A DNA stretch of 64,000 nt. Origin: Deltaproteobacteria bacterium. Lineage in GTDB: Bacteria; Myxococcota_A; UBA9042; DTJE01. A program made the translations under genes and the position numbers. The notes below the pieces were generated by a model. That model had not been told where the DNA came from and did not search any database. It saw nothing but the letters and a program-made list of their open reading frames with translations. The stretch is from assembly GCA_029547805.1 (NCBI GenBank), contig JAKPOP010000014.1:124001-188000 (forward strand), read 5' to 3'. The stretch's first letter is position 1. Every line of letters starts with the position of its first letter. This document shows positions 47,076-62,349 of this stretch, piece after piece.

Positions 47076-47104
47076 CTTCTATGCCGAACGGGGCGGCATT
47101 TCAA
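47076..47104 (-). promoter_or_regulatory. predicted promoter of the DUF1846 gene
   Basis: Minus strand TTGAAA (47104-47099), 17-base spacer, TAGAAG (47081-47076), 28 bases before ATG 47047. Confidence 0.55.
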
Positions 47105-48104
47105 GCCCGGGTGGGAGCGACTTCAAGGCCTCGAGCCTGCCGTTGCCGGGATGGGCCGCGCCTGGTCCATATGGAAACGGCCCGTACCTCGAATGCCGTC
47201 CGATGACTTTATCGAAAAATTCAAGGGTTCCGTTGCAACTGGGCGAACTGATGCCCTGGATTGCCGCCCGGGTCTCCACTCCCTCTCTGCCGTGCATCGC
47301 GGCCAACATGGAGCCCGATGGTTCGATGGCGCGGCACGTACGCCGGGAAAAGGCGGCTCGGTTGCGGTGGTTGCCTCCCGCAGTGCACCATGCAGCGTTT
47401 TTTCCCGTGTGGGGCCTAGATGGTGCCTGCGTTGTCCTGGAGAAGGACCCCGAAGAAGGGATGGGCCTGGCCCGGAGACTGGCGGCACTGGTCATTGAGG
47501 CCCGATCGGTTGCTCTGTTCTTCGTGCCTGGACCGGGCAAGCCTGTGATCCTGTCTCTGGACGGGCCTGGGGATCTCCTCCAACGGAAACCTGCGGCCGG
47601 GGATCACTCGATGGGGTGCCCTGATTGCCGAGCCAATTGCACAACCGTCTCCGGAAGCGATGATCCTCGGTTTTCATGGGGACGAAAGCCTTGGGGTGTC
47701 ACGGTTCGTTTCCTGCTCCGGCTGGCGAACCCCGTGCCGGGGGCAGTCCATCGGCCGAGCGATCTGCGGCTGTCGCTGCTCGATAACCATCGTCCTCCAG
47801 GGATCCGTCCTCCCTATCTTCATGCGGTCGAGCGGCTGGTGGGGGTTGCCCTAGGCCGAGCATTTGGGCGCGACCCGGACATTGTCCTTCGGGGAGCTGC
47901 GGAGGATTCCCCCAAGGAGCCTGTTCGTGTGGCACGCCGAAGACGGACGTTTAACGGGAAGAGAATGCCCCTCCGAGGGAACGTGAGGGACAGATCCCGC
48001 TGGGCCTGGTGGCTTCGACCCATGCCGCCGAAGAGGTGCTCTCTCCCTTTTTCTCTCTTCGCTATCGACCAGTTGGAGTTTTTCGAGGACCTGGGGTTTC
48101 CGGT

Positions 48105-48120
48105 AGTGTGCATGCACACT
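48105..48120. repeat. 16-base perfect palindrome
   Basis: AGTGTGCATGCACACT reads the same on both strands. It could be an operator relic or chance. Confidence 0.5.
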
Positions 48121-48333
48121 GTCGAGGCGGTAGACAGGGAAACCAGTCGTCCCCAGGAGGAATCAGCAGGCTCCCTTCGCCGGTCGTTACCGCCGGTTCC
48201 TTTGGACGAGGTGAGCATTGGTGACTACTCCCTACCGGCGACACCGACCTTCCTGGAAGGGGTCTACCCGGTCGTTCTGGGGGTTCCGGTTCTCTGGCTC
48301 ATTGACAATGCTCCGGCGTGCGCTCTGGAACTG

Positions 48334-48354
48334 GGACGTGCCACAGGCACGTCC
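48334..48354. repeat. perfect hairpin, 9-bp stem
   Basis: GGACGTGCC-ACA-GGCACGTCC. It lies 18 bases from a second hairpin, as in REP-type paired elements. Confidence 0.6.
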
Positions 48355-48372
48355 TCCCCTGCACTTCGTGTC

Positions 48373-48409
48373 GGGAGCCGGGGCCCCGCCTCCGGGGCAC
48401 CCGGCTCCC
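48373..48409. repeat. large double hairpin
   Basis: A 10-bp outer stem GGGAGCCGGG/CCCGGCTCCC and a 6-bp inner stem GCCCCG-CCTC-CGGGGC, with one bulged A. There is no T-run on either side, so it is more like a REP element than a terminator. Confidence 0.6.
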
Positions 48410-48529
48410 TCTCCAATGCCTTGCCCTGCTCGTTGTTCCTGTCCCATCTCTTTGGACCTCCTTCCGGGGGCTTCTTACCCCAGTTCCGTGTCCAAGGAAA
48501 TCGGGTGCAGGTCAAGATTTGTCCATGTA

Positions 48530-49205
48530 CAGGACATGGAACACCGGAAGGTGGAAGGTGACGTTACTCGGGAAGAGTTGCGGGCCTATTGCATGACGGG
48601 ACGCACGGGAGTCGACTGCATCGAGACCGGGGGGCCGGAGCCAGGGCGGGGTCGTGCCGGCGTGGTGTTGAACAAAATGCTGCAGGTGGTCGAGCAAACT
48701 CTGGGGTTCCTGCCCCAGAATGGCATCGTAATGAACGACGTGCTGGGAGACGTGGTCGGCGGAGGGTTCGCGATCCCGATGCGTGGGGGCCGGTTCTGCG
48801 AAATCCACATCATCGCGGGGTTCGATGTCGCTTCGACCTGCGCGGCCAATCACATTGTCAGAGCCGTGAGCAACAACGGCAGGACGGGGGCGCGACTTAA
48901 GGGGATTGTGGTCCATCGCGCCATCCCCGAAACAGGACTTTCCCTGCCCAGTCTTGAACGACTGGCGGCGCGGCTTGGCACCCGGGTCGTCGGTGTGCTT
49001 TCGAAAGACCCCCTGCTGATGCGTGCCTTGCCCTGGGTGCGACGGTTCTCGAGGGGTTTCCCGAGAGTCTCCGATGGCCCAGGCCTACCGGGCTCTGAGG
49101 GGCCGGATTGAGGCCGTGCGCCCCACTGATCTGGCCGCGCCGAGTCCCCTGACAAACGAGGAACTGTTTGCGTTCCTGTGCGACGAAGGGGCCTACGGCC
49201 AGCCT
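48530..49205 (+). pseudogene. remnant of a NifH/BchL-like Fe protein, cysteine ligands lost
   Basis: The frame that includes 48218-49111 contains unmistakable Fe-protein sequence: CIETGGPEPGRGRAG (NifH CVESGGPEPGVGCAG), MNDVLGDVVGGGFAIPMRGG (NifH YDVLGDVVCGGFAMPIR) and ERLAARLGTRVVGVLSKDPL. Both Fe-S cysteines are replaced, by Arg (CGT, 48653-48655) and Gly (GGC, 48758-48760), each one base away from a Cys codon. The C-terminal part (AQAYRALRGRIEAV to LTNEELFAFL, about 49075-49190) is in another frame, so a frameshift lies near 49050-49075. The N-terminal P-loop region is not visible upstream. It is therefore judged a decayed gene of the nitrogenase/protochlorophyllide-reductase Fe-protein family. 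No partner subunit gene is recognised nearby. Confidence 0.8.
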
Positions 49206-49278
49206 TCGAGCGACCCTGGGGGCGCCTCGATTCTGGAGTCCGGGCCTTGTGGACGGTTTGCGTCTTCTGCGGTGGCGG

Positions 49279-50358
49279 TCAATGGGCGAGGGAACGAAGG
49301 AGGCTTGAAACCGCTCGGGTTCTTTTCAACCAGGGCAACAGGTCCAGTCCATCCATTCCGATGGCCTCCCAACAGAAACAGGAACGCTGTTTGGATTCCA
49401 TCGCTTGCCGGACTTGTTGTGCGGTCGGGCCTCGCCAGAGGTTCTCCATCTCCTCTTCGGCGAGGTTCCCCAGCACTGATTCGGGCCGTCCATAGCATGC
49501 CAGTACCGTCCCATCCGGCATCAGCACCGCCGAGAGTGATGGAACCACGAGGCATCGAAAGTCTGTCGCCGCGGCCACCGGGTGTTCCAGGACCGACGGC
49601 AGCAGGGCGTAGTAGCGCCGCCGATACTCGGGCCATTGATTCCCAAGGGCTTTCAAGACACGCCGCAGTCGTGGCAGGTCCTCTGCTCGGAGCAGGACCC
49701 CATGGTCCCGGACTGGGTGAATGGAGTTGTTCATCGCCGCCTGGAGCACGACCCGATCGGCCCGTTGCCGCCAGCGGGCCACGATCGCAGGGATGTCCTC
49801 GAGGTTGTCGCGATGCAGGGTGACACGGATGATCAGCTGGGGATGCCGACCCTTCCGATGATGCAATCTTTCGACGGACGCCTCGATCTCTTGGAGCAGT
49901 CCTGGCCGGTTTCGAAAAGTGTCGTGGTCCTGTGGCCGAAGTCCGTCCACGCTCACGACCAAGAGGTCCAGCGAGGCCTGGACCAGTTCGTCCAAGTGCT
50001 CGGCAAGCCCTGCTCCCGAGGTTCCCAGGCTCACGAATTTGTCGGACCGTTTCAACAGAAGAAGAACATCCGGCAACTCCCGGAGCAGCAGAGGCTCGCC
50101 CCCAATCAACGATACCCAGCGAACACCCGATCTGGCCACTCGTCTTGCTAGTTCCAGGGGGTCCCGGCGCGGGCCGGACCGGGGCTTCATGTCACAATGG
50201 CGACAACGCAAGGGGCACTGTTCGACCACCGCCCATGTCAGTGCCAGAGGATGGCGCAACCAGCGGGTTCCCAGGAAGAGGTCGAATCCCCCATGGACGA
50301 GGGGAAGGCCCAGTCTCCGCAGGTCCCGAATGTCCAGTGTCCCACCCGCGATTCTCAT
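49279..50358 (-). CDS. radical SAM protein with SPASM/twitch-like C-terminus
   Basis: A 359-residue radical-SAM enzyme. The cluster motif CPLRCRHC (Cys48, 52, 55) binds the 4Fe-4S that cleaves SAM. LIGGEPLLLRELP is the GGE motif near 85. The C-terminal region has RCLVVPSLSAVLMPDGTVLACYG, a VLGNLAEEEMENLWRG stretch and CFCW, the layout of SPASM/twitch domains that bind an extra cluster. Such enzymes modify peptides, sugars or lipids. Its start overlaps the end of the PLP-enzyme gene as ATGA, so the two are coupled and probably act in one pathway. Confidence 0.85.
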   Translation of the reverse strand: MRIAGGTLDIRDLRRLGLPLVHGGFDLFLGTRWLRHPLALTWAVVEQCPLRCRHCDMKPRSGPRRDPLELARRVARSGVRWVSLIGGEPLLLRELPDVLLLLKRSDKFVSLGTSGAGLAEHLDELVQASLDLLVVSVDGLRPQDHDTFRNRPGLLQEIEASVERLHHRKGRHPQLIIRVTLHRDNLEDIPAIVARWRQRADRVVLQAAMNNSIHPVRDHGVLLRAEDLPRLRRVLKALGNQWPEYRRRYYALLPSVLEHPVAAATDFRCLVVPSLSAVLMPDGTVLACYGRPESVLGNLAEEEMENLWRGPTAQQVRQAMESKQRSCFCWEAIGMDGLDLLPWLKRTRAVSSLLRSLAH

Positions 50359-51614
50359 GGACTTCTATCTACCGAGGCCACTGCATGGACAACCCGTTCG
50401 AGGTCCTGGTCAGACATGCAGGAATGCAGAGGCAGATAGAGCATGTCGTCGCAATAGGACTCGGCGTTGGGACAAAAAACCCGGAACTCCTGGAAGGCCG
50501 GTTCCCGGGAGACGCAGGGCAGATTGGTCGGCACGGCATCCACTCCGAGTTGCGCCAGGCGGACCGCGGCGGCCGTTCGGTTGCGCGGCCACCATGGAAG
50601 GCGCCAGAAGCCCGGGTTCGCCCCGGGGGGCACTTTCGGGAGGCCCACGACGCCAGCGTCTTGCAAAGATCGGAGCAGGCGGTTGCCCAGGTCTCGTCGC
50701 CGATTCAACCGCTGATCGAGGTCCTTCAGGAGGTGTAGCGCGATGGCCGCCTGGACGCCCGAGTATCGACGAAACATGCCCTCCGGAAACGACTCCCGCC
50801 GCGCGATGGTGTCATCGTAGTTCTTCCAGGGGCCGAAGGCCCCGATCTGGGCCCTGCGAACCGCCGAGGGCCTGGTTCGTTCCAGCCTCCGAATCGCGGG
50901 ATGCACCAGATGACCAAACAGGAGAGGCTCAGTGGCCACTTTCAGGATGCTGTCCCGGATCCACCAGCCCAGCAATGTGGACCAACGCTCCGTGGCCCAC
51001 GAGTCCGAGACTCGTCGAAGCGTGCGTGCGATGCGTGGATCCCGAACCAGGGCCAGGCCGCCATGGAACGAGCACAGGGGCTTCAGGGTGGTGAGGCTGC
51101 AGACCGATCCGTCTCCGAATGTGCCGAGAGGCGAGCCGTTCCAGAATGCCCCATGAGCCTGGGAGAAGTCCTCGATCAGGAACAACCCTCGGGCTCGCGC
51201 GAAGGATGCGATGTGGTCCATGTCCGCCGGAAACCCCGCGAGATGGGTGACCAGGATGCCGCAGGTGCGGGCGTTCGTCGCGGCGGACATTGCCTCAAGG
51301 TCCATCGAGCAGGATCGGAGCCCAAGGTCCACGAATACCGGCCGGAGCCCGGCCAGCAGGATGGCGTTGACCACATCCGGGATCGTGACCGGCGTGAGGA
51401 GGACCTCCATTCCTGGGCGGATCTCCATCGCCAGGAGCATCTCGTAGACCCCGATGCGGGCATGAGGCATCGCAACTGCGTAGAGACCGGGATATCGAGC
51501 CTCCATTGCGGACTCGAATCTCGAGACGACCTCCCGGTCCGGCGGCTTCCCAAGCAGATAGCCCAGCGACCGAAGTGGCCGGAAATCGACCTCTGCCCGA
51601 GGGACGACCCTCAT
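50355..51614 (-). CDS. DegT/DnrJ-like PLP-dependent aminotransferase
   Basis: About 419 residues, starting at ATG 51614 (ATG 51659 is an alternative). It has the fold markers of the DegT family in less conserved form: AMPHARIGVYEMLLAM (cofactor phosphate region), TPVTIPDVVNAILLAGLRPVFVD, FLIEDFSQAHGAFW (Asp and the QAHG motif) and VCSLTTLKPLCSFHGG, where the Lys is the probable Schiff-base residue. The extended C-terminal half contains aromatic-rich GFWRLPWWPRNRT. It may act on a non-sugar ketone. It is coupled to the radical-SAM gene downstream and divergent from the UbiA gene. Confidence 0.8.
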   Translation of the reverse strand: MRVVPRAEVDFRPLRSLGYLLGKPPDREVVSRFESAMEARYPGLYAVAMPHARIGVYEMLLAMEIRPGMEVLLTPVTIPDVVNAILLAGLRPVFVDLGLRSCSMDLEAMSAATNARTCGILVTHLAGFPADMDHIASFARARGLFLIEDFSQAHGAFWNGSPLGTFGDGSVCSLTTLKPLCSFHGGLALVRDPRIARTLRRVSDSWATERWSTLLGWWIRDSILKVATEPLLFGHLVHPAIRRLERTRPSAVRRAQIGAFGPWKNYDDTIARRESFPEGMFRRYSGVQAAIALHLLKDLDQRLNRRRDLGNRLLRSLQDAGVVGLPKVPPGANPGFWRLPWWPRNRTAAAVRLAQLGVDAVPTNLPCVSREPAFQEFRVFCPNAESYCDDMLYLPLHSCMSDQDLERVVHAVASVDRSP

Positions 51615-51747
51615 CGTGCCCGCCAACGTTCCTCCTTCCCAGCGGATGGGACCTTCCATCGGACCTGGGAACAACACCTGCCAGGATCTCATTGTTCCAC
51701 GGTTCGGTGCTCTTTTCCAGCAACTCCAGGGAGAACGCCAATGTCGA

Positions 51748-51776
51748 TTGCGCTGGGACCCGGAGGAACCTAGAAT
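51748..51776 (+). promoter_or_regulatory. predicted promoter of the UbiA-radical SAM pair
   Basis: TTGCGC (51748-51753), 17-base spacer, TAGAAT (51771-51776), about 31 bases before ATG 51807. Confidence 0.55.
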
Positions 51777-51806
51777 CCAGCCGTCCCGAGAGAGCGAGGA
51801 AGGTCC

Positions 51807-52685
51807 TTGGGGGATGTCGTTGGGTTCGGCGGTTCTGTTCCCGGCAGACCGTCCCATCCGGTCGTGCTGGGGCTTCGGGCCATGCGCGTCCACCACTGGT
51901 GGTATTTTGCACTGTTGCCAATGGCGGCCTTTCCCAGGCTGCTGCGGTGGCCACCGGAACTGGATTCGGAAACGGCGATTCGCTTGCCGCTGGCCATCGG
52001 GGTCGCCCTGACCGCCCTGGCCCATGCCTACCTGGTCAATGCCGTTTCGGACCGGCAGATGGATCGCAATCCCCGGAAGAACGCCCTTCCCCCCGAAGGA
52101 CCTTTGCCGGTTTTCGTGCCCTGGCTTGCGGTCATTCTGGCGACCAGTTCCGTCGGGATGGCGACGATGCTGGGCCCCTTGGCGCTCTCGGCGGCCCTCA
52201 TCAGCATCGTTGCCGGGACGATCTACAGCCTGCCTCCGCGCCTCAAGAGTCTTCCGTTCCTGGGGCTGGTCGGAAACGCCCTGATCTTTTTTCCTCTTCT
52301 GTTTCTGGGATTTCAGCACATCGAACAGATCACGCCGGAGATCCAGGCGATGGGCGTGGTGTTCCTGACCTTGTTGACCCAGAACCAGTTGGTGCATGAA
52401 CTGGCGGATCGGGAAGAGGACGCGGCCCGAGGGGACCGTACCACCGGGAGAACGCTGGGGACCTGGGGCACCGCCGGGGCCCTCGTCGTCCTGGGAGGGA
52501 GTGGGCTGGTCGCGGTTGCCAGGGTTCTGCCAGGGCAAGACCGGTCCTGGGCGGCCTTCTGTGGTCTCGGGTGCTCGACGCTGCTCTGTTGCGCCCTGCT
52601 GGGGCATCCCTCGCTTGCAAGGCGCCTCCACCGTGTCCTGGCCCTGGTCGTCGGGGCCTTGCTGTTCGCGCAGGCGTCGGGATGA
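51807..52685 (+). CDS. UbiA family prenyltransferase
   Basis: A 292-residue membrane prenyltransferase with about nine helices. It carries the first Asp-rich motif NAVSDRQMDRNPRKN (NxxxDxxxD) and a second, HELADREEDAARGD, both of which bind magnesium-diphosphate. The family attaches polyprenyl chains to aromatic rings, sugars or glycerol phosphates. LGLRAMRVHHWWYFALLP is the usual N-terminal segment, so the longer start at 51807 is kept rather than the ATG at 51882, which would cut into it. Its stop overlaps the next radical-SAM gene as ATGA. Confidence 0.85.
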   Translation: MGDVVGFGGSVPGRPSHPVVLGLRAMRVHHWWYFALLPMAAFPRLLRWPPELDSETAIRLPLAIGVALTALAHAYLVNAVSDRQMDRNPRKNALPPEGPLPVFVPWLAVILATSSVGMATMLGPLALSAALISIVAGTIYSLPPRLKSLPFLGLVGNALIFFPLLFLGFQHIEQITPEIQAMGVVFLTLLTQNQLVHELADREEDAARGDRTTGRTLGTWGTAGALVVLGGSGLVAVARVLPGQDRSWAAFCGLGCSTLLCCALLGHPSLARRLHRVLALVVGALLFAQASG

Positions 52686-53677
52686 GGAAACCTCCGATCC
52701 AGGCATGGAAGGCTCTATGGCAGTGGATTCGCTATCGTCGCGTTCCCCTCTCGGTGACTTTCGTGCTGACCAACCGATGCAATCAGACCTGCTCCTACTG
52801 CGACATCCGGACGGACCGGTCCATGGAGATGTCCACCGATGCATGGATCGCCGCGCTGCAGGAATTTCACTCCCTCGGGCTTGTCCGGGCCTCCTTCAGC
52901 GGGGGCGAGGTGTTGCTGCGCGCCGACCTCTCCCGGATTCTTTCGGAGGCGCGGTCTCTCGGGATGACGACCTCGATCAACACGAACGGCTCGCTGCTGG
53001 CAGATCGGTGGCCCGAGATCGCCCCATGGCTCGACATGCTCGTGCTTTCGCTGGACGGTCCTCGGGAGGTCCACGATGCACGATGTGGGAGGCGCGGTTC
53101 CTTTGACCGGGTGCTGGAGGCGATTCGGCTGGCGCGTCGGTCCGGGGTACCGGTGGCCACCATCTTCGTTGCGGACCGGGACAATCTGGCTACCTTGCCG
53201 TTCGTGATGGAAATGGGGGCGCGCGAGGGATTCTTCGTCTACGTGCAGCCTCGCCACGCCTCCTGTTTCTCTGTGGACCAGGGGCTTGGGGATCTCGATT
53301 CGGATTTCCTGCAGCACCTTGGGCACATGTTGGAGCGGGCTCGGCGCCTGGGCCTTCCGATCGGAGCCTCGAGGTCCTTTGTGGCCACGCTCTTGGACCC
53401 AGAACAGGTTCCGTCGTGCCGTGCCTGCGCCGCGGGCAACTTCTTCGCGACCGTGCTGCCGGACGGCGAGTTGATCCCGTGCCATCTGACCCGTCGGGAG
53501 CATCCGCGAGACCTGGTGGCGCAGGGGGGGGTCGAGAAGGCCTGGAGGAGCCTGGCCCATCCGTGGACCGGGCGCGGGTGCCTCATTGCGCCTTATCAGG
53601 AGTTGAACAGGATGTTTCATCTGGACCCCGAGGCGATTCGCAGTGCCCTGATGCGGCTGGCTGGACGGCGCAGGTGA
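52682..53677 (+). CDS. radical SAM protein coupled to UbiA
   Basis: A 331-residue radical-SAM enzyme: CNQTCSYC (Cys33, 37, 40), SFSGGEVLLRADL (GGE motif), SINTNGSLL and LVLSLDGPREVHDARCG, the classical TIM-barrel strand motifs. CRACAAGNFFATVLPDGELIPCHL in the C-terminus suggests a truncated SPASM-like site with extra Cys. The first bases overlap the UbiA stop, so the two are made together. The product could alter the prenylated compound. I cannot name a specific family such as PqqE or HpnH. Confidence 0.85.
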   Translation: MRKPPIQAWKALWQWIRYRRVPLSVTFVLTNRCNQTCSYCDIRTDRSMEMSTDAWIAALQEFHSLGLVRASFSGGEVLLRADLSRILSEARSLGMTTSINTNGSLLADRWPEIAPWLDMLVLSLDGPREVHDARCGRRGSFDRVLEAIRLARRSGVPVATIFVADRDNLATLPFVMEMGAREGFFVYVQPRHASCFSVDQGLGDLDSDFLQHLGHMLERARRLGLPIGASRSFVATLLDPEQVPSCRACAAGNFFATVLPDGELIPCHLTRREHPRDLVAQGGVEKAWRSLAHPWTGRGCLIAPYQELNRMFHLDPEAIRSALMRLAGRRR

Positions 53678-53687
53678 TCTGGAGGAA

Positions 53688-53716
53688 CCGGGAGATCCGC
53701 CCGCTGGTCCTCCCGG
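53688..53716. terminator. possible hairpin between convergent genes
   Basis: CCGGGAG and CTCCCGG are separated by a 15-base loop, between the ends of two convergent radical-SAM genes. No T-run, so it is weak evidence. Confidence 0.25.
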
Positions 53717-53788
53717 AAAAGGTCAGAACCGGGACGCCAGTTTTTCAGGAAGGGGGGTCCAGGCGCCTCGATCGCATGCAGAGGGGTC

Positions 53789-55411
53789 CTAGAGTTCTGC
53801 GGACGTTCCGATACGGTCCGGTCCTCCGGACCCGTTGACTGTCTGTGAGGGCGCCGGGGCGTTCGCGTCCTCCCCGAACAGCGGACCTGGGACCGTCAGG
53901 TAATCCTTCCGAGGTAGCAAGGCTTGCAGCATCGTGCGGCCGTAGATTCGTCCGTAGATCTTCCAGTCCAGACTGCCCCGAAGGGCGGAGCACCCGACGT
54001 CCATCAGGAAGGGGATGGCCCGGGCCACGGGCACGGGCAGCCTCCGGAAGGCTCCCCGGGGCAGGATCCTGCGCAACCGATCGCCCAGTAGCGGCAGGCT
54101 CTTCAGGATGGTTTCGTAGTACAGGTAGTCCTGCAGCATTGCGCCTTCAATGCCCGCACCCTCCACCAGTTCCGGGGTGTAGTACGAGGTCACCTCGCCA
54201 CGAGCAATGCATTCCGCCTCCTCCTCAGAGACCCGTCCCTCCTGGACGGCGTCCAACAGCATCTTCGTTCCGGGAAGGTAGCGAAACCAGAAAGTGGCGA
54301 TGCGCTCGGGTCCGATGCGGGCGAAGTAACGGATTGCCTCGTCAAGGGTTTCGAGGGGTTCCTCGGGAATCGCCAGAATCTGGTCCATCCGCACCCGAAT
54401 GCCGGCGCTCTTCAAAGCCCATGCACTGGCCGCGATTCGTTCCTGGTGCTGCCATCCGCGATCCATGCGTCTCAGACTCTGAGTGTCGAGCGACTGCACC
54501 CCCAGAATCACCATCTCGCAGCCGGCGTTTCGGAGGCTGCGGGCCATCTGGTCGTCCACCCGTGTCGGTACTGTCTGGCACGAAAACGGGATACCGATCT
54601 CGTTTCGGTATTGCGGCAGAAACTCGAGCATCCAGCGTCGATTCGTGAGAAAGACGTCATCGAAGAATTCGACCCATTTTGGCGCGTAGCGTTGCTTCGC
54701 CAGACGCAACTCCTTGAGCACGTGGCCTGGCGATCGCATCCTGAGGCGTCGAGAGGGGCTCGTCGTCAGGTCGTGCCAGAAACTATTGAAGCAGAAGGCA
54801 CAATGCATTGGGCAACCGCGGCCTGCCATGACCCCATAATTGAGGGAGAGGTCGATCGCGTCTTCATACAGCCCCTTGTCGGGGAAAGGCAGGTCGTCCA
54901 GGTTTCCGACAGCTCGCGCGGGGGCGCCAGGAAGCGGTTCGCCATTCGGCCCCCGGGTCCAGAAGCCGGGCACCAGGCGTGTCGGCCGCCCGTCGGCCAG
55001 CGCGATCAACAGTTCCTCGAAGGCGAGTTCTCCTTCCCCGACGCAGCCGGCGTCCACGGAAGGCTCCGATAGCATCGTACGAGGCACCGCGGATGCGTGG
55101 GGACCCCCGAAGAGGATCATCGGTGTCGGGCCCAGCGTCTCTCGCACCTTCCGGGCCGTGGACAGCGCCCATCGACAAGAGGGGGCGGTGGGTGAGAAGA
55201 GCACGACGTCGGGTTGCCAGGCCGCCAGTGCCCCCAGGAACCCGACCCGGGAGGTTCGATTTCCAAGCAAGTCCGTGTCGAGGTAGTTCCGATCTCCGAA
55301 GGCCGCCGGGCTGAAGGCCAGGCGCACCTCGTGGCCTCGACGCCGTGCGACGGCGCTGAGAATCTCGAAACCCATCTTTTCGAGACCCTCCGAGACAAAG
55401 GCTAGGCGCAT
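53789..55411 (-). CDS. cobalamin-binding-domain radical SAM protein
   Basis: A 540-residue class-B-like radical-SAM enzyme. The N-terminal B12-binding-type Rossmann domain (about 1-145) shows FVSEGLEKMGFEILSAVARR, QPDVVLFSPTAPSCRWA, MILFGGPHASAVP and CVGEGELAFEELL. The radical-SAM core has GRGCPMHCAFC (Cys200, 204, 207) and LGVQSLDTQSLRRMDRG. The usual DxHxxG His of B12-ligating proteins is absent, as in other members of this class. Relatives methylate hopanoids or form rings in tetraether lipids, among many other jobs. ATG 55411 follows a good promoter. It is transcribed toward the UbiA-radical SAM pair. Confidence 0.85.
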   Translation of the reverse strand: MRLAFVSEGLEKMGFEILSAVARRRGHEVRLAFSPAAFGDRNYLDTDLLGNRTSRVGFLGALAAWQPDVVLFSPTAPSCRWALSTARKVRETLGPTPMILFGGPHASAVPRTMLSEPSVDAGCVGEGELAFEELLIALADGRPTRLVPGFWTRGPNGEPLPGAPARAVGNLDDLPFPDKGLYEDAIDLSLNYGVMAGRGCPMHCAFCFNSFWHDLTTSPSRRLRMRSPGHVLKELRLAKQRYAPKWVEFFDDVFLTNRRWMLEFLPQYRNEIGIPFSCQTVPTRVDDQMARSLRNAGCEMVILGVQSLDTQSLRRMDRGWQHQERIAASAWALKSAGIRVRMDQILAIPEEPLETLDEAIRYFARIGPERIATFWFRYLPGTKMLLDAVQEGRVSEEEAECIARGEVTSYYTPELVEGAGIEGAMLQDYLYYETILKSLPLLGDRLRRILPRGAFRRLPVPVARAIPFLMDVGCSALRGSLDWKIYGRIYGRTMLQALLPRKDYLTVPGPLFGEDANAPAPSQTVNGSGGPDRIGTSAEL

Positions 55412-55439
55412 GATCGTCTCACGACTGTTCTCTAGGGTA

Positions 55440-55468
55440 AGTAAATGAATTTGTCGACGTTCTGTCAA
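55440..55468 (-). promoter_or_regulatory. predicted promoter of the B12 radical SAM gene
   Basis: Minus strand TTGACA (55468-55463, perfect -35), 17-base spacer, TTTACT (55445-55440), 29 bases before ATG 55411. Confidence 0.6.
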
Positions 55469-55546
55469 GATCGCTGGCGACTGACCTTGTTGTGATGAGC
55501 TGGAACCACGGGTCCGGCCCCCGCTACCGAACTCGGTGATTCGTGG

Positions 55547-55575
55547 TTGCTGCGATCGTCTGCCGGTGCTAGAAA
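55547..55575 (+). promoter_or_regulatory. predicted promoter of the membrane protein gene at 55591
   Basis: TTGCTG (55547-55552), 17-base spacer, TAGAAA (55570-55575). The RNA would start only about nine bases before GTG 55591. Confidence 0.5.
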
Positions 55576-55590
55576 GAGCAGGACGTTGAG

Positions 55591-57330
55591 GTGCTGGTAG
55601 CCGTGGAATGGGTGGCTGGGATCGTGTTGGTTGCCATTGTTGTCTGGTTCGCCATCCGACTGGTGCGGACCACCGTTCGGGACCTGTCCGAAGGACCTTT
55701 CCCTTCGGGGCGGCGAGCGGCATTGATGGCCCTGGCGCTGATGGGCGTTCTGGTACCGGTGCGCCACCTGTTGGTGCCGATCTCGTTTTCTCACAGCAAC
55801 TACTTTGGCCCTCAACTTCTGGATGCCGTTTTGGGGTACGGAGGGCTTCGAATCCGGGAGTACGGCCCCCTTGGTTTCCTGTTCTACCGAGTACCTGCGA
55901 CTCTGGGACGCGACCCCCTCGAGGCATTGGCATTGACCAATGGGCTCCTCTCCGCTCTGGCGTCTTTCGCCCTATCGGCCGCGCTTGCACTGGGCACTAG
56001 GAGGCCCGCGGTGCTGCCGTGGGGGATGGCGCTCTCACTGCTGCACCCGATGGTGGCCCGCCTGTCCCTTTCGGAGGATGCCATTCTTCTGAACCTGTTC
56101 CTGTGCTTCTTTGCATTTCACCAGACGGTTCGTTTCTTGATGCGGCAGGACCGGACATCGGGGATGCTGGCGCTGTCTGCCGCGATTCTGGCCCTGTGGA
56201 CCCGCCAGATCGGCTTCCCCTGGCTCCTGGCAACCTTTCTGGTCCTGCCTCTGGTGACCAGGAAGGCCTCCCGGTGCATGGCGTTGGCCCTCTCGGGCAC
56301 CTTCCTGTTGCTGCTGGCGGTTCGCGTGTTCGAGGACCTCGGGACCGACGATCGTGTGAGTTATGAACTCCTGGCTGGATTTCTGAAGGCCCCCTCGTGG
56401 TGTCTTGCCGCTCTGGTTCGCCATCCACTGGTCGATCCCGCGGCTGCCGCGGTCCTGCTGCCGCTGCTTGTGGTCGGTGTCGCGGCGATTCGCCGAAGTC
56501 CCGTGGCAGGTCTCTTTCTGGCTGCCTTCCTGGTTGCCTTCCTGGCCACGGCTGTTGCAGGCCTGGACAATATCGGGGATGGAATCGGCTTTCGTTCGCC
56601 AGCCCTGTTTGCCGGAATCGCCCTGGGAGGGGCAGGTCTTGACGCGTTCATGCGCTGGATGCCAAGAGGAACCTGGGGCCGGTCGGGTCTCCGGTGGCTA
56701 CTGAGTATGGGGGCACTGGCCAACGGACTGATTCTTCCTGCCTCGGAATGGGCATTTCGGGTCTCTCCAGAGACTCGGGAATACCGTTATCTCGAGGCCG
56801 TGATTCCCTTTCTGGGCGACTTCTACGCCCTAAGGACCTTTCGGTCCTGGCGATATTCGCCGGACCTCGTGCCACCCCAGCACCTGTTTCGACGGTCGGG
56901 CCGCGAGGTGGAGGTCCTGGACATCCGAGAAGCGACCGGTCATCGCAGAAACCTGGTGTTGCTGGGACTCTATTGCGATGTCAGGTCCGTTGCGGAGTTG
57001 TACTACCAGAGTCAGTGCGCCTGCGGACTCCTTCCTCGGGACGAGGACCCGGACGCGATGGCCGTCCAACAACGCCTTCCGTTGGACGAGTTTCTGGCGG
57101 AATCTGCCCAGGGACGCTTGCCAATCGGAATCGAACGTCCGACGGACGAGCGGGCGATCTGCAAGTTGATTCGTCGGTTCGGCCATCCGGTGAGTCCCTC
57201 CTGGGTGCTTCCTCCAGGACCGGATGACGTTCCATTCGGAGTGTGGACCGGCAAGGACGTGACGCTGGAGATCGTCGAGATCGACGACGAGGACTTGGCG
57301 ATGCTGCGCTCCGTCTGCATGGAACAATGA
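55591..57330 (+). CDS. polytopic membrane protein, GT-C glycosyltransferase-like
   Basis: A 579-residue protein starting at GTG 55591. The first 380 residues hold about eleven membrane helices, with YFGPQLLDAVLGYGGLRIREYGPLGF after the second helix, a loop that recalls the ArnT/PMT (GT-C) family, although no DxD or ExD pair is certain. The last 190 residues are soluble and contain a Cys-rich stretch (YCDVRSVAELYYQSQCACGLL). The family is not identified. In an island with UbiA and radical-SAM enzymes, a polyprenyl-linked substrate is plausible but unproven. Confidence 0.7.
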   Translation: MLVAVEWVAGIVLVAIVVWFAIRLVRTTVRDLSEGPFPSGRRAALMALALMGVLVPVRHLLVPISFSHSNYFGPQLLDAVLGYGGLRIREYGPLGFLFYRVPATLGRDPLEALALTNGLLSALASFALSAALALGTRRPAVLPWGMALSLLHPMVARLSLSEDAILLNLFLCFFAFHQTVRFLMRQDRTSGMLALSAAILALWTRQIGFPWLLATFLVLPLVTRKASRCMALALSGTFLLLLAVRVFEDLGTDDRVSYELLAGFLKAPSWCLAALVRHPLVDPAAAAVLLPLLVVGVAAIRRSPVAGLFLAAFLVAFLATAVAGLDNIGDGIGFRSPALFAGIALGGAGLDAFMRWMPRGTWGRSGLRWLLSMGALANGLILPASEWAFRVSPETREYRYLEAVIPFLGDFYALRTFRSWRYSPDLVPPQHLFRRSGREVEVLDIREATGHRRNLVLLGLYCDVRSVAELYYQSQCACGLLPRDEDPDAMAVQQRLPLDEFLAESAQGRLPIGIERPTDERAICKLIRRFGHPVSPSWVLPPGPDDVPFGVWTGKDVTLEIVEIDDEDLAMLRSVCMEQ

Positions 57331-57347
57331 CGCCTCGTCGTTTTTTT
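57329..57347 (+). terminator. weak intrinsic terminator
   Basis: A 4-bp GACG-CCT-CGTC hairpin followed by G and seven T residues, directly after the stop at 57330. Confidence 0.35.
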
Positions 57348-57382
57348 ATTGGGGGTTTTCACTGCTCTTGGGCCGTCGCGGC

Positions 57383-57411
57383 TTGACCAGAGCCCAGGGG
57401 TCTTCTATGGT
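57383..57411 (+). promoter_or_regulatory. predicted promoter of the Tes-like radical SAM gene
   Basis: TTGACC (57383-57388), 17-base spacer, TATGGT (57406-57411). The RNA start near 57418 excludes the ATG at 57349. Confidence 0.6.
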
Positions 57412-57444
57412 GGTCAGGGTCGCCCAATGGGAGGCTCGCGGGCA

Positions 57445-58794
57445 ATGGGGGCAGTCATCGAATCGCCCTCCCCTCAGGTTCCCGGCAAGGTCCTTCGCCG
57501 GACCGAGTCCCTCTGCCCAACCTGTGGTCGGGTTTGCCAGGCTCGCGTGGTGCAGCGCGACAGGGCGGTCTTCCTGCAACGAACCTGTCCTCTGGACGGC
57601 GCTACCGAGGTTCGACTGAGCCGGGACGCGGATTGGTATCACTCCCTCTCGGCCACGCTGCACGACACGCGTTCTCCCAGGCTGATCCACTCTCCCCTGC
57701 GAGTCGAAGACCCGGTTCGCGGCGTCTTCGTGGACGTGACCTCCCGGTGCAATCTGCATTGTCCGAACTGCCTCTCCAATGTGCAACCCGGGGTTCCGGA
57801 GCAGGCACCGACTCTTCCGGCACTGCTGGAGTCCTTGAGGGCCATGCATCCGGCTCGACCGGTGGTCTATCTGGGGGGAGGCGAGCCCACCATTCGCCCC
57901 GATCTGCCAGAGTGGATCCGGGTGCTGCGGGCGCAAGGCCATGCGGTCAAGCTGCTCACGAACGGACTTCGGCTGGCGGATATCGACTACTGCAGGGCCT
58001 TGCAGCAGGCAGGGGTCACCTGGGTCTGTCTGCAGTTCGATTCCCTCGAGGAGGGGCATCTGGCGCGGATTCGGGGGCGACGGGGGTTGTCAAGAGCCAG
58101 GCAGGACGCGTTGAGGAACCTCTCGACGCTTGGGATGAACGTGGACCTGGCCTGCATGATCGACCGGGAGACCAACTTCCATTCCCTGGGCGATCTGGTA
58201 CGACTGGGACTCTCGACACCGGGCGTCCGGCATGTCTCCCTGATGCCCTCTCGACGGATCGGAAGGGGACGACTGACCGATTCCGAATCCTTTTTGGAGG
58301 ACATTGATCTGGTGGAGGCACTTGAGGATCAGACCGACGGCGCCGTAACTCGACAGGATTGGTTGTGGTTCCAGCGGATCACCTCAGCGATCTACCGATT
58401 GACCGGACGCGCGGACTGGAAGCCTCGGCGGTGCTTTCTGGCCCTTCCCCTCGTGGGGGAGGCCCGGAGGTTCGCTCCCTGGACCCGGCCCTGGAAGTTC
58501 GCCTTCGACACCCAGGACGTTGAGGCCGTTCTCCGGACGGCCCTGCACCGGGGTCCTGTCGAGGAGGCAAGGTGGAGCGAGAGGACACTCTTGCTCTCCA
58601 TCGAGAGTTTCTGGGAGCCAGAGAACATCGATTTGCTTGAGGCCTCCCGGTGCAACCGCTACTACCTCGTGGACGGGACGCTGCGACAGGCCTGCATCTA
58701 CAACGTGCTGAACCGACCGGTTCGGGAATGGCCGGGCGTTGCTCAATCGAGCGGCTCGCCTCGTCGCATGTCCGAGGAAATCCAGACACCCTAG
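57445..58794 (+). CDS. radical SAM protein of the tetraether-lipid-synthase (Tes)/COG1964 type
   Basis: About 449 residues from ATG 57445, which has GGGAGG upstream; ATG 57427 is possible. The N-terminus has the metal-binding layout LCPTCGRVCQARVVQRD then LQRTCPLDGATEV and DADWYHSL, the conserved opening of COG1964 proteins. The radical-SAM core follows: DVTSRCNLHCPNC (Cys102, 106, 109), YLGGGEPTIRPDLPEWI, LLTNGLRLADIDYCRAL and WVCLQFDSLEEGHL. The C-terminus has SIESFWEPENIDLLEASRCNRYY and LRQACIYNVL, matching the family's final conserved region. The characterised archaeal member Tes joins lipid tails to make tetraethers. Whether this protein couples lipids is not shown; the family contains other activities. 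Confidence 0.83.
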   Translation: MGAVIESPSPQVPGKVLRRTESLCPTCGRVCQARVVQRDRAVFLQRTCPLDGATEVRLSRDADWYHSLSATLHDTRSPRLIHSPLRVEDPVRGVFVDVTSRCNLHCPNCLSNVQPGVPEQAPTLPALLESLRAMHPARPVVYLGGGEPTIRPDLPEWIRVLRAQGHAVKLLTNGLRLADIDYCRALQQAGVTWVCLQFDSLEEGHLARIRGRRGLSRARQDALRNLSTLGMNVDLACMIDRETNFHSLGDLVRLGLSTPGVRHVSLMPSRRIGRGRLTDSESFLEDIDLVEALEDQTDGAVTRQDWLWFQRITSAIYRLTGRADWKPRRCFLALPLVGEARRFAPWTRPWKFAFDTQDVEAVLRTALHRGPVEEARWSERTLLLSIESFWEPENIDLLEASRCNRYYLVDGTLRQACIYNVLNRPVREWPGVAQSSGSPRRMSEEIQTP

Positions 58795-59618
58795 CGCGGA
58801 GCGACGGGCACGAAGACCTCGAAGTCCGGTTCCTTGCCCTGTTTCAGAAGGGAGAACCAGTCCTCGTCGGAATAATAGAGATACAGGGGGGAAACCGGCA
58901 CAAGCCCCCGGGATCGGGCCTCTCGGACCCGATCGTCCAGGACACGGTTTCGCTGGTCCGTGGGGATCCCCCGGGGGGTTCGGATGACCCGAAGGGTCGG
59001 CTGTTGCCGGAGCACCAACGGGGGCTTCACCGCGGTATCAGGAAGCACGGGAATCAAGGCTTCGGCGAGGACCTCGAGAGAATCACGATTCGGTTGTTCC
59101 AGCACCCGGACGTCGGGAAAGCGAAGCATCGGGTGAGCCAGGGTGGGCAGGCGTTGCTTCTCCGCCTCGATGATCAGGTCCCGGAGGCGGTCCAGGTTCG
59201 TGGTGCCTGGAGCGGATCTCGGTTTCTCGATCGTGGCATACGAGAACCCGGCCACTTCGGCAGGATCCTCGGTTCCCAACGGCGCCCCCAGTTTCTGGGA
59301 CTGGAGTCGGAACAAGGCCCACTGCTTTGGGGAGAGGCCGAGGTCTTCCCGAGTCACATGAGTCATCCAATGGCGGGGTGCCACCGGGGCGAACAGGGCA
59401 TTGGGGGATTCGGTGGGCAGAGGTGCTGGCCGTGCTTCATTGGCCGAGGGAGGGGGTGTTGAAGGCGTCTCTGCCTTCGGTTCCGATGCCTGGACCACCT
59501 TTCCGGGATCCGGAGAATGCTTTCTCCCAGTTCGGTTCCAGAGGACCCAGATCAGACCGGCTCCAACCAGCGATGGAACAATGACCAGGACAGCCACTAT
59601 CAAGCTTTTTTGCCGCAA
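58791..59618 (-). CDS. single-pass membrane protein, unknown
   Basis: About 275 residues. Start TTG 59618 is preferred over TTG 59636 because GGAGG lies seven bases before it. One N-terminal transmembrane helix (about 5-27, SLIVAVLVIVPSLVGAG) is followed by a Pro-rich extracytoplasmic linker and a compact domain (MTHVTREDLGLSPKQWALF to the C-terminus), with no recognised family. It overlaps the end of the Tes-like gene by four bases in convergent orientation. Confidence 0.6.
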   Translation of the reverse strand: MRQKSLIVAVLVIVPSLVGAGLIWVLWNRTGRKHSPDPGKVVQASEPKAETPSTPPPSANEARPAPLPTESPNALFAPVAPRHWMTHVTREDLGLSPKQWALFRLQSQKLGAPLGTEDPAEVAGFSYATIEKPRSAPGTTNLDRLRDLIIEAEKQRLPTLAHPMLRFPDVRVLEQPNRDSLEVLAEALIPVLPDTAVKPPLVLRQQPTLRVIRTPRGIPTDQRNRVLDDRVREARSRGLVPVSPLYLYYSDEDWFSLLKQGKEPDFEVFVPVAPR

Positions 59619-59648
59619 GTCCGGACCTCCGTTCAAGAGCCTTCGGAA

Positions 59649-59657
59649 ATCCTAACA
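59649..59657 (-). promoter_or_regulatory. possible extended -10 promoter
   Basis: Minus strand TGTTAGGAT, about 30 bases before TTG 59618. It fits TG-n-TAnnAT, with no clear -35. Confidence 0.35.
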
Positions 59658-60788
59658 CGCCTCGTTCTTTCTGGGCCCGAAGGAGCATCTCCTGCAAACA
59701 GGAGAGGGACTTCGCCCCGCCAACAGACCGGATTTCAGGTTCCTGGCCATCTCCCCGGAGAGCAGGTTGGTCAACGGATGCTCCAGCAAATTCCCCAAGG
59801 CGTCCTGGGGATGCACCATCCTCTGGCACGGAAAGACGAACCCGCGCGAATCGACCCGGACCTTGTACCACGGGGCCGTCCAGACGACGGGCCACTGGTT
59901 TTTCAGGAGTTCCTCGTCCTGGACATCCCATCTCCCATCAGCAGGACCGCCTGTTCCTTCGGGAGAGAAGGACGCGGAGGCTCTGGAAGAATCACCATGA
60001 CGTTGCGTCGCTTCTCCTCGATCTTCAATCTGGTCAGGGCGATTCGAAGCACCTCTCCTTCCATGCCCCGGAACCGCACGATGCGGCTCCGAACGGCCGG
60101 CCGACCCACCACGAGTTGGGAAAGATGCATGCGGAAGATGCCCAGAACGGCGATCTTCCGAAGAGTGGTATCCAGAAACGGCAACGTTATCGACGTGATG
60201 AGAGCCTGAACACCCACCTGGAGCCGATTCCACCGCGCGTGTCGCAGGAAGGGGACCAGGTTCTTTCGGGGTCTTGGCCAGGTGGACAGAGGCCGAAGTC
60301 AGGCGTAGATCATCTGGGACCGTCGTGTCGATGGACAGGAGCAGGGTGTCGAGGCCCGCTGCCGCCAACGTCTCTCGGAATTCCGGAGTCAACTGACTCC
60401 CGGAGGTCAACAGGCAGGGTTCGGGTCGTGATGCCTGCCGGTACCGTTTGGATCGCAAGGTCCGAATGTGGCGAGGCAGGTCGGGGTCCATCAATGGTTC
60501 GTGTCGGCAGCCGAAAGAGATGTCGTGGGCCAAGGGCTGCACTTCACGCGAGACGGCCTGCGACCACTCATCTCCCGCACAGTGCTGGCTGCGATGGCCT
60601 GTGGGATGGCGAATACGGCATCGCAGGTGACAACTCTTCGTGGGGTCCAGCAGCACCGACCCGCGGCCACGGCCTGGGTCCATCCAGAGGTATCGGGTCA
60701 GGGAGGCTAGACCCGATCCCGCGCGGCGGAGCCTGGCGATTTCGATACGCAGGGGAAGGAGCCGATCAGAAGAGGGAATCGTACGCAT
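59652..60788 (-). pseudogene. degenerate radical SAM/SPASM gene with two frameshifts
   Basis: The outer parts of a radical-SAM/SPASM protein lie in one frame, and the middle in another. The start (ATG 60788) encodes DPTKSCHLRCRIRHP, a CX3CX2C motif whose third Cys is Arg (CGC for TGC), then FGCRHEPLMDPDLPRHI and LDTLLLSIDTTVPDDL. From about 60260 to 59935 the sensible reading is in the second frame (NLVPFLRHARWNRLQVGVQ, then ITLPFLDTTLRKIAVLGIF). The last part returns to the first frame (APWYKVRVDSRGFVFPCQ, VCRRCSFGPRKNEAC), typical of SPASM. Two compensating indels and the lost cluster ligand mark it as inactive. A good promoter remains, with the RNA start at the ATG. Confidence 0.8.
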
Positions 60789-60796
60789 CGACGGGA

Positions 60797-60825
60797 ACTT
60801 TATTGGATGGCGGATCCCCGGTCAA
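60797..60825 (-). promoter_or_regulatory. predicted promoter of the radical SAM pseudogene
   Basis: Minus strand TTGACC (60825-60820), 17-base spacer, TAAAGT (60802-60797). The RNA start falls at or next to ATG 60788, so the message would be leaderless. Confidence 0.55.
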
Positions 60826-60933
60826 GCATTACCTGGACCAGCCTGATCCAGGTGGCATTGAAAGGGTCTCTTCGGTCCACTGGACCGGTGGAACACGATG
60901 GCCAGGCCCACGAGGCGCTCCGGGAAGTTCCGT

Positions 60934-62349
60934 TCAAGCCCGGGTGGGCCGGTGGTCCATCGCGAAATAGGTCCGGGTCCGCTCCACCACCTCGGGGGAG
61001 AGGATCAGGAGGGCGATCAGGTTGGGGACCGCCATGAGCGTCAGCACCGCGTCCACGAACTTCCAGACCATCTCCTTGGCCCAGACGGCCCCGATGAAGA
61101 CGAAGAGGCAGTAGAGGTAGCGGTAGGGGACCACGAAACGACGCCCGAGCAGGTAGCCGACGGCCCGGTCCCCGTAGTAGGACCAGGAGATGGCCGTGGT
61201 GAAGGAGAAGAGCAGCAGGGAGACCGAGACGACCACGCCTCCGACCTGGAGTCCCAGGACCGTCAGGTCCAGGCCCGTCTCGAAGGCCTGGTAGGACATC
61301 GCGGCGCCCATCTTTCCCGAGGACCAGGCCCCGGTGAGCAGCAGCACCATGCCGGTCATCGTGCAGATGATCAGGGTGTCCACGAGGGGCTCCAGAAGGG
61401 CCACGAGCCCCTCCCGCACCGGGTACTCGGTCCGGGCGGCCGCATGGGCGATGGGGGCCGATCCCTGTCCGGCCTCGTTGCTGAAGAGTCCCCGGGCGAT
61501 GCCATAGCGGGCCGTCAGCAGGAACGTGGACCCCAGGAACCCGCCCGTTGCGGCGGTGCCCGTGAAGGCCCCCTCGAAGACCAGTCGGAACATCGTCGGC
61601 AACCGGTCGTATTCGAAGGCGATCACGGCCAGGCAGGCCGTCACGTAGAACAGTGCCATGAACGGGACCAGTCGCTCGGCCACCGAGGCGATCCGGCGGA
61701 TGCCGCCCAGGATCACGGCCCCCACGAGTCCCGCCAGCACGAGCCCCGAGAGCCAGGTGGGGATTCGCAGGCCATCCCTGAGGTCGAAGGCGTGGATTGC
61801 GTCGGCCATGGAGTTGCTCTGAGCCATGTTGCCGGTCCCGAGGCTGCACAGGACGGTGCCGACGGCAAAGAGGATCGCCAGGGGCTTCGCCATGGGGCCC
61901 AGGACCCGGGAGGCGGCCCGCTCGATGTAGTACATGGGACCGCCACTGACGCTGCCGTCGGGGTGGACCTCCCGGTACTGCTGGGCCAGCGTGCACTCGG
62001 CATACTTGGTGGCCATTCCGAAGAAGCCGGTCATCCAGAGCCAGAAGAGGGATCCGGGTCCGCCGTAGTAGATCGCCAGGGCCACGCCGGCGATGTTGCC
62101 GGTGCCCACCGTGGCCGAGAGGGCCGTGCAGAGGGCCTGGAAGTGGCTCACGTCGCCGTGGTCCCCGGGGCGGTCGTAGCGGCCCATCACGAGGTCCTTC
62201 GCGTGTCGCAGGCCCCAGACCTGGATGAGCCGGAGTCGGATCGTGAACCAGATCCCCACCGGGAGCAGCAGCGCCATCAGCGCGTAGGTGCCCACGTAGG
62301 TGTTGTAGGCGTCCAGGACCCGTCCGATCGCCTGGCTGACGTCGTTCAT
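60934..62349 (-). CDS. sodium:alanine/glycine symporter (AGCS family)
   Basis: A 471-residue inner-membrane symporter with about eleven helices. Family landmarks: ALSATVGTGNIAGVALAIYYGGPGSLFWLW, KYAECTLAQQYRE, GSVSGGPMYYIER, GTGNMAQSNSMADAI and FSNEAGQGSAPIAHAAA. AGCS proteins import alanine or glycine with sodium. It starts one base after the stop of the NSS symporter gene, so the two are co-transcribed. The length is normal and no odd residues are seen. Confidence 0.93.
   Translation of the reverse strand: MNDVSQAIGRVLDAYNTYVGTYALMALLLPVGIWFTIRLRLIQVWGLRHAKDLVMGRYDRPGDHGDVSHFQALCTALSATVGTGNIAGVALAIYYGGPGSLFWLWMTGFFGMATKYAECTLAQQYREVHPDGSVSGGPMYYIERAASRVLGPMAKPLAILFAVGTVLCSLGTGNMAQSNSMADAIHAFDLRDGLRIPTWLSGLVLAGLVGAVILGGIRRIASVAERLVPFMALFYVTACLAVIAFEYDRLPTMFRLVFEGAFTGTAATGGFLGSTFLLTARYGIARGLFSNEAGQGSAPIAHAAARTEYPVREGLVALLEPLVDTLIICTMTGMVLLLTGAWSSGKMGAAMSYQAFETGLDLTVLGLQVGGVVVSVSLLLFSFTTAISWSYYGDRAVGYLLGRRFVVPYRYLYCLFVFIGAVWAKEMVWKFVDAVLTLMAVPNLIALLILSPEVVERTRTYFAMDHRPTRA

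Follow-up and report, generated by a model that had tools for sequence, protein, structure and literature searches.

In this study, we report that a 64,000-nucleotide window from contig JAKPOP010000014.1 of a Deltaproteobacteria bacterium (the window meaning this whole stretch) carries a conserved operon in which the gene of a UbiA-family prenyltransferase is translationally coupled to a radical S-adenosylmethionine (radical-SAM) gene, here rSAM2, and that the operon lies within a discrete 13.8-kb insertion at positions 47100-60948. The UbiA-rSAM2 unit occurs in 10 or more Myxococcota genera, and its probable product is a prenylated lipid or metabolite not described before. The block as a whole is best read as a mobile island whose genes would make a prenyl lipid or metabolite that is tailored and possibly glycosylated; with roughly even confidence, we propose that it was acquired horizontally as a genomic island, that it entered the genome at the 3' end of an AGCS symporter gene, and that its biosynthetic genes yield a tailored prenyl product. 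All the enzyme superfamilies involved are known, whereas the literature searched contained no account of a UbiA gene translationally coupled to a radical-SAM gene.

The stop codon of UbiA and the start codon of rSAM2 overlap in an ATGA at 52682-52685, and this 4-bp overlap recurs at many of the loci that were checked, one of which has rSAM2 first. In 377 genomes sampled from Myxococcota, the phylum to which related records assign the host, UbiA matches were found in 32 at E 1e-3, 15 of them, the host included, with E<1e-14. A search of the aligned UbiA family against 84,980 species genomes returned 22 loci. Each belongs to Myxococcota or to a record whose label reads delta-proteobacteria or uncultured bacterium; they include seven Nannocystis, Polyangium, Paraliomyxa, an Archangium metagenome-assembled genome (MAG) and others. 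After L070 and L086 were left out, as their contigs end before the expected neighbour, one or two rSAM2-like genes were located beside or near UbiA in 19 of the 20 evaluable loci, at a distance of 6 kb in L073; the sole exception, L083 (10001-10609), encodes a UbiA of the family with no detectable rSAM2 in 20 kb. Sequence distances of UbiA and rSAM2 are correlated (r 0.52, p 0.0003, n 11). In Nannocystis the pair stands alone amid unrelated genes, bare in all seven genomes found, and it is therefore the functional unit.

Beyond the CxxxCxxC motif of rSAM2, C283, C286, C304 and C337 are invariant in an alignment of 19 relatives, a pattern that suits one auxiliary Fe-S cluster. The closest solved relatives of rSAM2 are SkfB, cytosylglucuronate decarboxylase and PqqE, and these do not fix its substrate. 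It shares the radical-SAM core and C-terminal auxiliary-cluster cysteines with enzymes of the PTO1314/PqqE/SkfB/MoaA types, but differs from them in its linkage to UbiA and in reaching 97/306 bits (score/cut-off, here and below) for the nearest model.

By its sequence, the block UbiA is a prenyltransferase of an uncharacterised subfamily with complete catalytic residues. R27, N78, D86, Y140, K147, D201 and D205, all invariant in an alignment of 14 relatives, correspond to R22, N68, D76, Y139, K146, D198 and D202 of AfUbiA, the Mg/diphosphate residues of that enzyme (PMC4106721); D82 is mostly D and in some of the 14 sequences E, and both Asp-rich motifs that mark the superfamily, NxxxDxxxD and DxxxD, are present. 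The predicted structure (predicted local distance difference test, pLDDT, 88) has the UbiA fold, with AfUbiA as the best PDB match (template modelling score, TM, 0.70; E 6.8e-7), followed by DGGGP synthase, while the phosphoribosyl (DPPR) enzyme ranks lower, also below ApUbiA. With AfUbiA and other UbiA structures (4TQ3-4TQ6; DGGGP synthase 6M31) it shares the fold, both Asp-rich motifs, a YxxxxxxK segment and the catalytic residues, but it is set apart by a QNQLxHE motif, 14-20% structural identity, its radical-SAM coupling and its phylogeny. In a tree with CtaB, MqnP-type, MenA, DPPR and DGGGP references, whose clade labels were verified by NCBIfam, the UbiA of the pair formed its own clade (support 99/92); this separate clade and the model scores led us to reject MenA, MqnP, CtaB, DPPR and DGGGP synthase as assignments. 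Since UbiA enzymes cluster by acceptor (Hemmi et al., as cited in PMC9385802), such a clade suggests that the acceptor is probably other than the known ones. Two UbiA-family genes were found in the host genome, that of the block and one of DPPR type, with no MenA, MqnP or CtaB type, and the host organism may be without quinones. Locus L120 was placed as DPPR-type by the tree and by its motif.

The host genome is a MAG of 4.08 Mb, 96.7% complete, and the junctions of the block are given as in the assembly. Only 145 bp separate the DUF1846 gene from the AGCS symporter gene on one contig of G001, a genome of the same genus, whereas in the host, where their proteins are 94% and 93% identical to those of G001, respectively, 13.8 kb lie between them. 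A perfect 16-bp direct repeat, TTCAAGCCCGGGTGGG, bounds the block and occurs in exactly two copies in the 4.08 Mb genome, with one more site at one mismatch. Its right copy coincides with the 3' terminus of the AGCS symporter gene on the minus strand, covering its final four codons and stop (PTRA plus stop), and insertion at gene ends is typical of site-specific insertion. Third-position guanine plus cytosine (GC) content is 0.64-0.76 for genes inside and about 0.9 in the immediate flanks, and orthologues of UbiA, of the radical-SAM genes rSAM4 and rSAM1 and of the DegT-family gene of the block were not found in G001 at the thresholds used. The 145-bp spacing in G001, the repeat found only twice, the GC shift and the missing orthologues thus mark a discrete insertion, and two features of an integrative island, occupied and empty sites in close relatives and direct repeats, were found. 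A first-pass annotation of the window had drawn the block at 49279-60788; every gene named there is in place, but the unit is larger and the bounded insertion had gone unnoticed. The empty site and the repeats suggest a multi-radical-SAM pathway moving as one unit between Myxococcota, and such movement could partly account for the patchy and very high numbers of radical-SAM genes in Myxococcota genomes.

Radical-SAM genes were called with the Pfam model PF04055 at Pfam's own cut-off. Four genes exceed it (rSAM1, rSAM2, a B12-binding enzyme and rSAM4), each with an intact CxxxCxxC, and a fifth is called decayed because of its sub-cut-off score, broken motif and frame change: the third motif cysteine is gone and part of the middle is in another frame, with the SPASM end kept. 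The first-pass annotation had counted them in the same way, and the two couplings that it had described were also confirmed, the second being an ATGA at 50355-50358 shared by the stop of DegT, a pyridoxal-phosphate (PLP) enzyme, and the start of rSAM1. Five radical-SAM genes in 11.5 kb compare with 0.2 expected from 71 matches in 4.08 Mb, and this density is not due to chance. On the other hand, there are other tight radical-SAM groups in the host genome (C27:7647-13810, C11:12612-16441 and C7 of G000), and with these and the 71 matches a radical-SAM cluster as such is therefore not unusual in it.

The gene-neighbourhood comparison that had been suggested earlier bore out the linkage. rSAM1 was found in three of the 377 genomes, the host, G210 (same class, other family) and G372 (other class), and all three loci are linked to UbiA, rSAM2-like genes and DegT. 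The DegT copies of the G210 and G372 clusters are 40-41% identical to that of the block, the next best matches being 27-34%. The block DegT resembles sugar/cyclitol aminotransferases (scyllo-inositol, ArnB, perosamine), with which it has the family and the PLP-lysine segment in common, but it scores 99-116 bits with curated DegT aminotransferase models whose cut-offs are near 375-630. A tryptophan-halogenase-family gene and a cupin_8 gene lie near DegT and rSAM1 in the G372 cluster (L064 359-2002, 2942-3712). A second cluster form, in L073, L074 and L078, has a tandem pair of rSAM2-like genes and, adjacent or close to UbiA, cupin_8; L073 adds PhyH and B12 radical-SAM genes.

A full-length orthologue of rSAM4 was found in G210 alone (43% identity), so the gene is present in two of the three genomes with the extended set. 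rSAM4 has the zinc-ribbon CxxC...C, radical-SAM core and C-terminal cysteines in common with Tes/GDGT-MAS (7TOL) and TrsS; three cysteines of its rubredoxin site CxxC...CxxH are kept, while the histidine is aspartate in the window and histidine in G210. Tes joins lipid tails through a C-C bond, and by analogy rSAM4 may act on unactivated carbon as Tes does. The N-terminal auxiliary [4Fe-4S] cluster of Tes is bound by C73, C77 and C80 (PMC9433317), but in both the host and the G210 copy of rSAM4 the stretch from the zinc-ribbon to the radical-SAM motif is free of cysteines, and the host copy scores 143/450 bits; without equivalents of these three cysteines, rSAM4 was rejected as a tetraether synthase. 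For the B12 enzyme, the best NCBIfam model was HpnJ (106/578 bits), followed by ladderane (85/360) and HpnR (52/650), all under cut-off, and curated models did not support HpnR or GrsA. B12-binding and radical-SAM core are common to the block enzyme and the HpnJ/ladderane type, but no hopanoid or ladderane genes were recognised in the block. In other genomes of the host's family, relatives of the B12 enzyme (31-34%) have DegT and radical-SAM genes as neighbours; L114 (G002 C34) and L118 (G004 C76) from that family are distinct clusters that combine B12 radical-SAM, DegT and radical-SAM genes, and one of the two also encodes a Tes-like protein. As for the membrane protein of the block, no Pfam model was above cut-off, and its fold prediction (pLDDT 41) is too low for use. 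The protein at the same position in the G210 cluster passes PMT_2 (27.9 bits, cut-off 26.1), as does one in the L074 cluster, and GT-C-similar proteins occur in other clusters; the earlier description as GT-C-like is weaker than the other gene calls.

We propose that UbiA would transfer a prenyl chain from its diphosphate to an acceptor at the membrane, and that rSAM2, made from the same message, would carry out an adjoining radical oxidation or rearrangement on the acceptor or product. The coupled DegT and rSAM1 would assemble or aminate a sugar- or cyclitol-like moiety; modification of an unactivated carbon, possibly along the chain, would fall to rSAM4 and the B12 enzyme, and the GT-C-like protein may attach a sugar to the product outside the inner membrane. 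This scheme as a whole is about an even call. The core genes follow one another with gaps of no more than about 190 bp, too short for a precursor gene; a reading as a ribosomally synthesised and post-translationally modified peptide (RiPP) cluster is therefore disfavoured as far as these gaps go, an argument that does not extend to 47.1-48.5 kb. More tentatively, and we hold this as possible but doubtful, UbiA-rSAM2 might represent an undescribed Myxococcota prenyl-lipid pathway of which the island is a mobile form, adding amino-sugar/cyclitol-like and carbon-carbon modifications to give a bacterial lipid class not yet seen. The modified prenyl or membrane lipid of the first-pass annotation is partly supported: the linkage is confirmed and the complete active site of UbiA is in keeping with a prenyl product, while the membrane lipid is drawn by analogy. 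The outcomes that the annotation had named as refuting it were not seen, as the genes are linked in relatives and the UbiA lies in no clade of known function. As the pair is present in culturable Nannocystis, Polyangium and Paraliomyxa, its product is open to direct search.

Several observations speak against a mobile island for a tailored prenyl product. The cluster contains no recognisable prenyl-diphosphate synthase, and at 1e-6 the G210 cluster has no counterpart of the B12 enzyme. The link between the GT-C-like protein and its PMT_2-positive counterpart is weak (24% identity, E 0.005 for one comparison), and tailoring genes are absent beside the Nannocystis pair and hence not essential to the core step. 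No recombinase or integrase was found among the block open reading frames scanned with Pfam, and a tRNA search gave no tRNA at the island ends; the integrase may have been lost or may act in trans. Two decayed island genes, the radical-SAM gene and a NifH-family remnant, count against present activity, and with the absence from G001 they might indicate a decaying acquisition that is no longer productive. We regard this as unlikely, given that UbiA, DegT and four of the radical-SAM genes retain their full length, their motifs and their overlaps.

A secreted specialised metabolite, that is, a prenylated natural product instead of a membrane lipid, with radical-SAM enzymes, DegT, cupins, PhyH and halogenase as tailoring enzymes, seems a more serious alternative, though still a doubtful one. 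The small-molecule product allowed for in the first-pass annotation is in keeping with the related clusters, which carry cupin_8 (2-oxoglutarate-oxygenase-like), PhyH, amidohydrolase and halogenase genes; tailoring genes that vary in this way from relative to relative therefore make a specialised metabolite possible, and the patchy distribution and mobility of the cluster point in the same direction. However, no dedicated exporter or resistance gene was recognised, and retention of the bare pair throughout the Nannocystis genomes found suits a stable cellular component. Another reading is a redox lipid or quinone-like carrier, with the pair in the role of MenA or MqnP, as the near-complete host genome has a single other UbiA, of DPPR type, and no other quinone prenyltransferase was found in it; but same-genus G001 has no such UbiA and Nannocystis has CtaB- and MqnP-type proteins besides that of the pair, thus a quinone role is improbable, and the pair UbiA lies in a clade apart from MenA and MqnP. 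Still less probable is a phosphoribosyl-type role for UbiA, in which the GT-C protein would receive its polyprenyl-phosphate sugar from it, much as DPPR synthase serves arabinan synthesis. While UbiA adjoins GT-C and sugar-type DegT genes in several clusters, these genomes, the host's among them, also have members of a distinct DPPR clade with full support, DxxxD, the second Asp-rich motif of prenyl-diphosphate users, is invariant in UbiA, the DPPR model score is 17/207 bits, and in structure the DPPR enzyme is outranked by AfUbiA, DGGGP synthase and ApUbiA.

Table 1. Features of the island, in window coordinates
Feature	Position	Strand	Basis
Left 16-bp direct repeat TTCAAGCCCGGGTGGG, island left end	47100..47115	+	Exact match to right copy
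NifH/frxC-family gene remnant, lacking N-terminal P-loop part	48575..49024	+	PF00142 E 6.7e-27, profile positions 69-216 of 271
rSAM1, radical-SAM/SPASM protein	49279..50358	-	PF04055 63 bits, SPASM
DegT-family PLP enzyme; start inferred at 51614	50355..51614	-	PF01041 169 bits; ATGA overlap with rSAM1
UbiA-family prenyltransferase; true start between 51807 and 51882	51807..52685	+	PF01040 56.7 bits
rSAM2, radical-SAM protein	52682..53677	+	PF04055 88 bits; ATGA overlap with UbiA
B12-binding radical-SAM protein; start inferred at 55411	53789..55411	-	PF02310 and PF04055 (64.5 bits)
Polytopic membrane protein, GT-C-like	55591..57330	+	No Pfam match; weak likeness to counterpart in related cluster
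rSAM4, Tes/TrsS-related radical-SAM protein with N-terminal zinc-ribbon; start probably 57427	57349..58794	+	PF04055 70 bits, Zn_ribbon_HMPTM; 7TOL E 1.4e-37
Protein with one N-terminal membrane helix, candidate pathway member	58791..59636	-	Open reading frame, coding-like composition; no Pfam match
Decayed radical-SAM/SPASM gene	59652..60788	-	PF04055 21 bits, below cut-off; partial core
Right 16-bp direct repeat, island right end	60933..60948	+	Exact match to left copy

An Rfam search of the island gave no match, nor did a tblastn search of the two decayed stretches with neighbour proteins as queries. The protein with one membrane helix has no known domain, and its gene borders the end of rSAM4. 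The NifH/frxC-family remnant sits just within the left end of the island.

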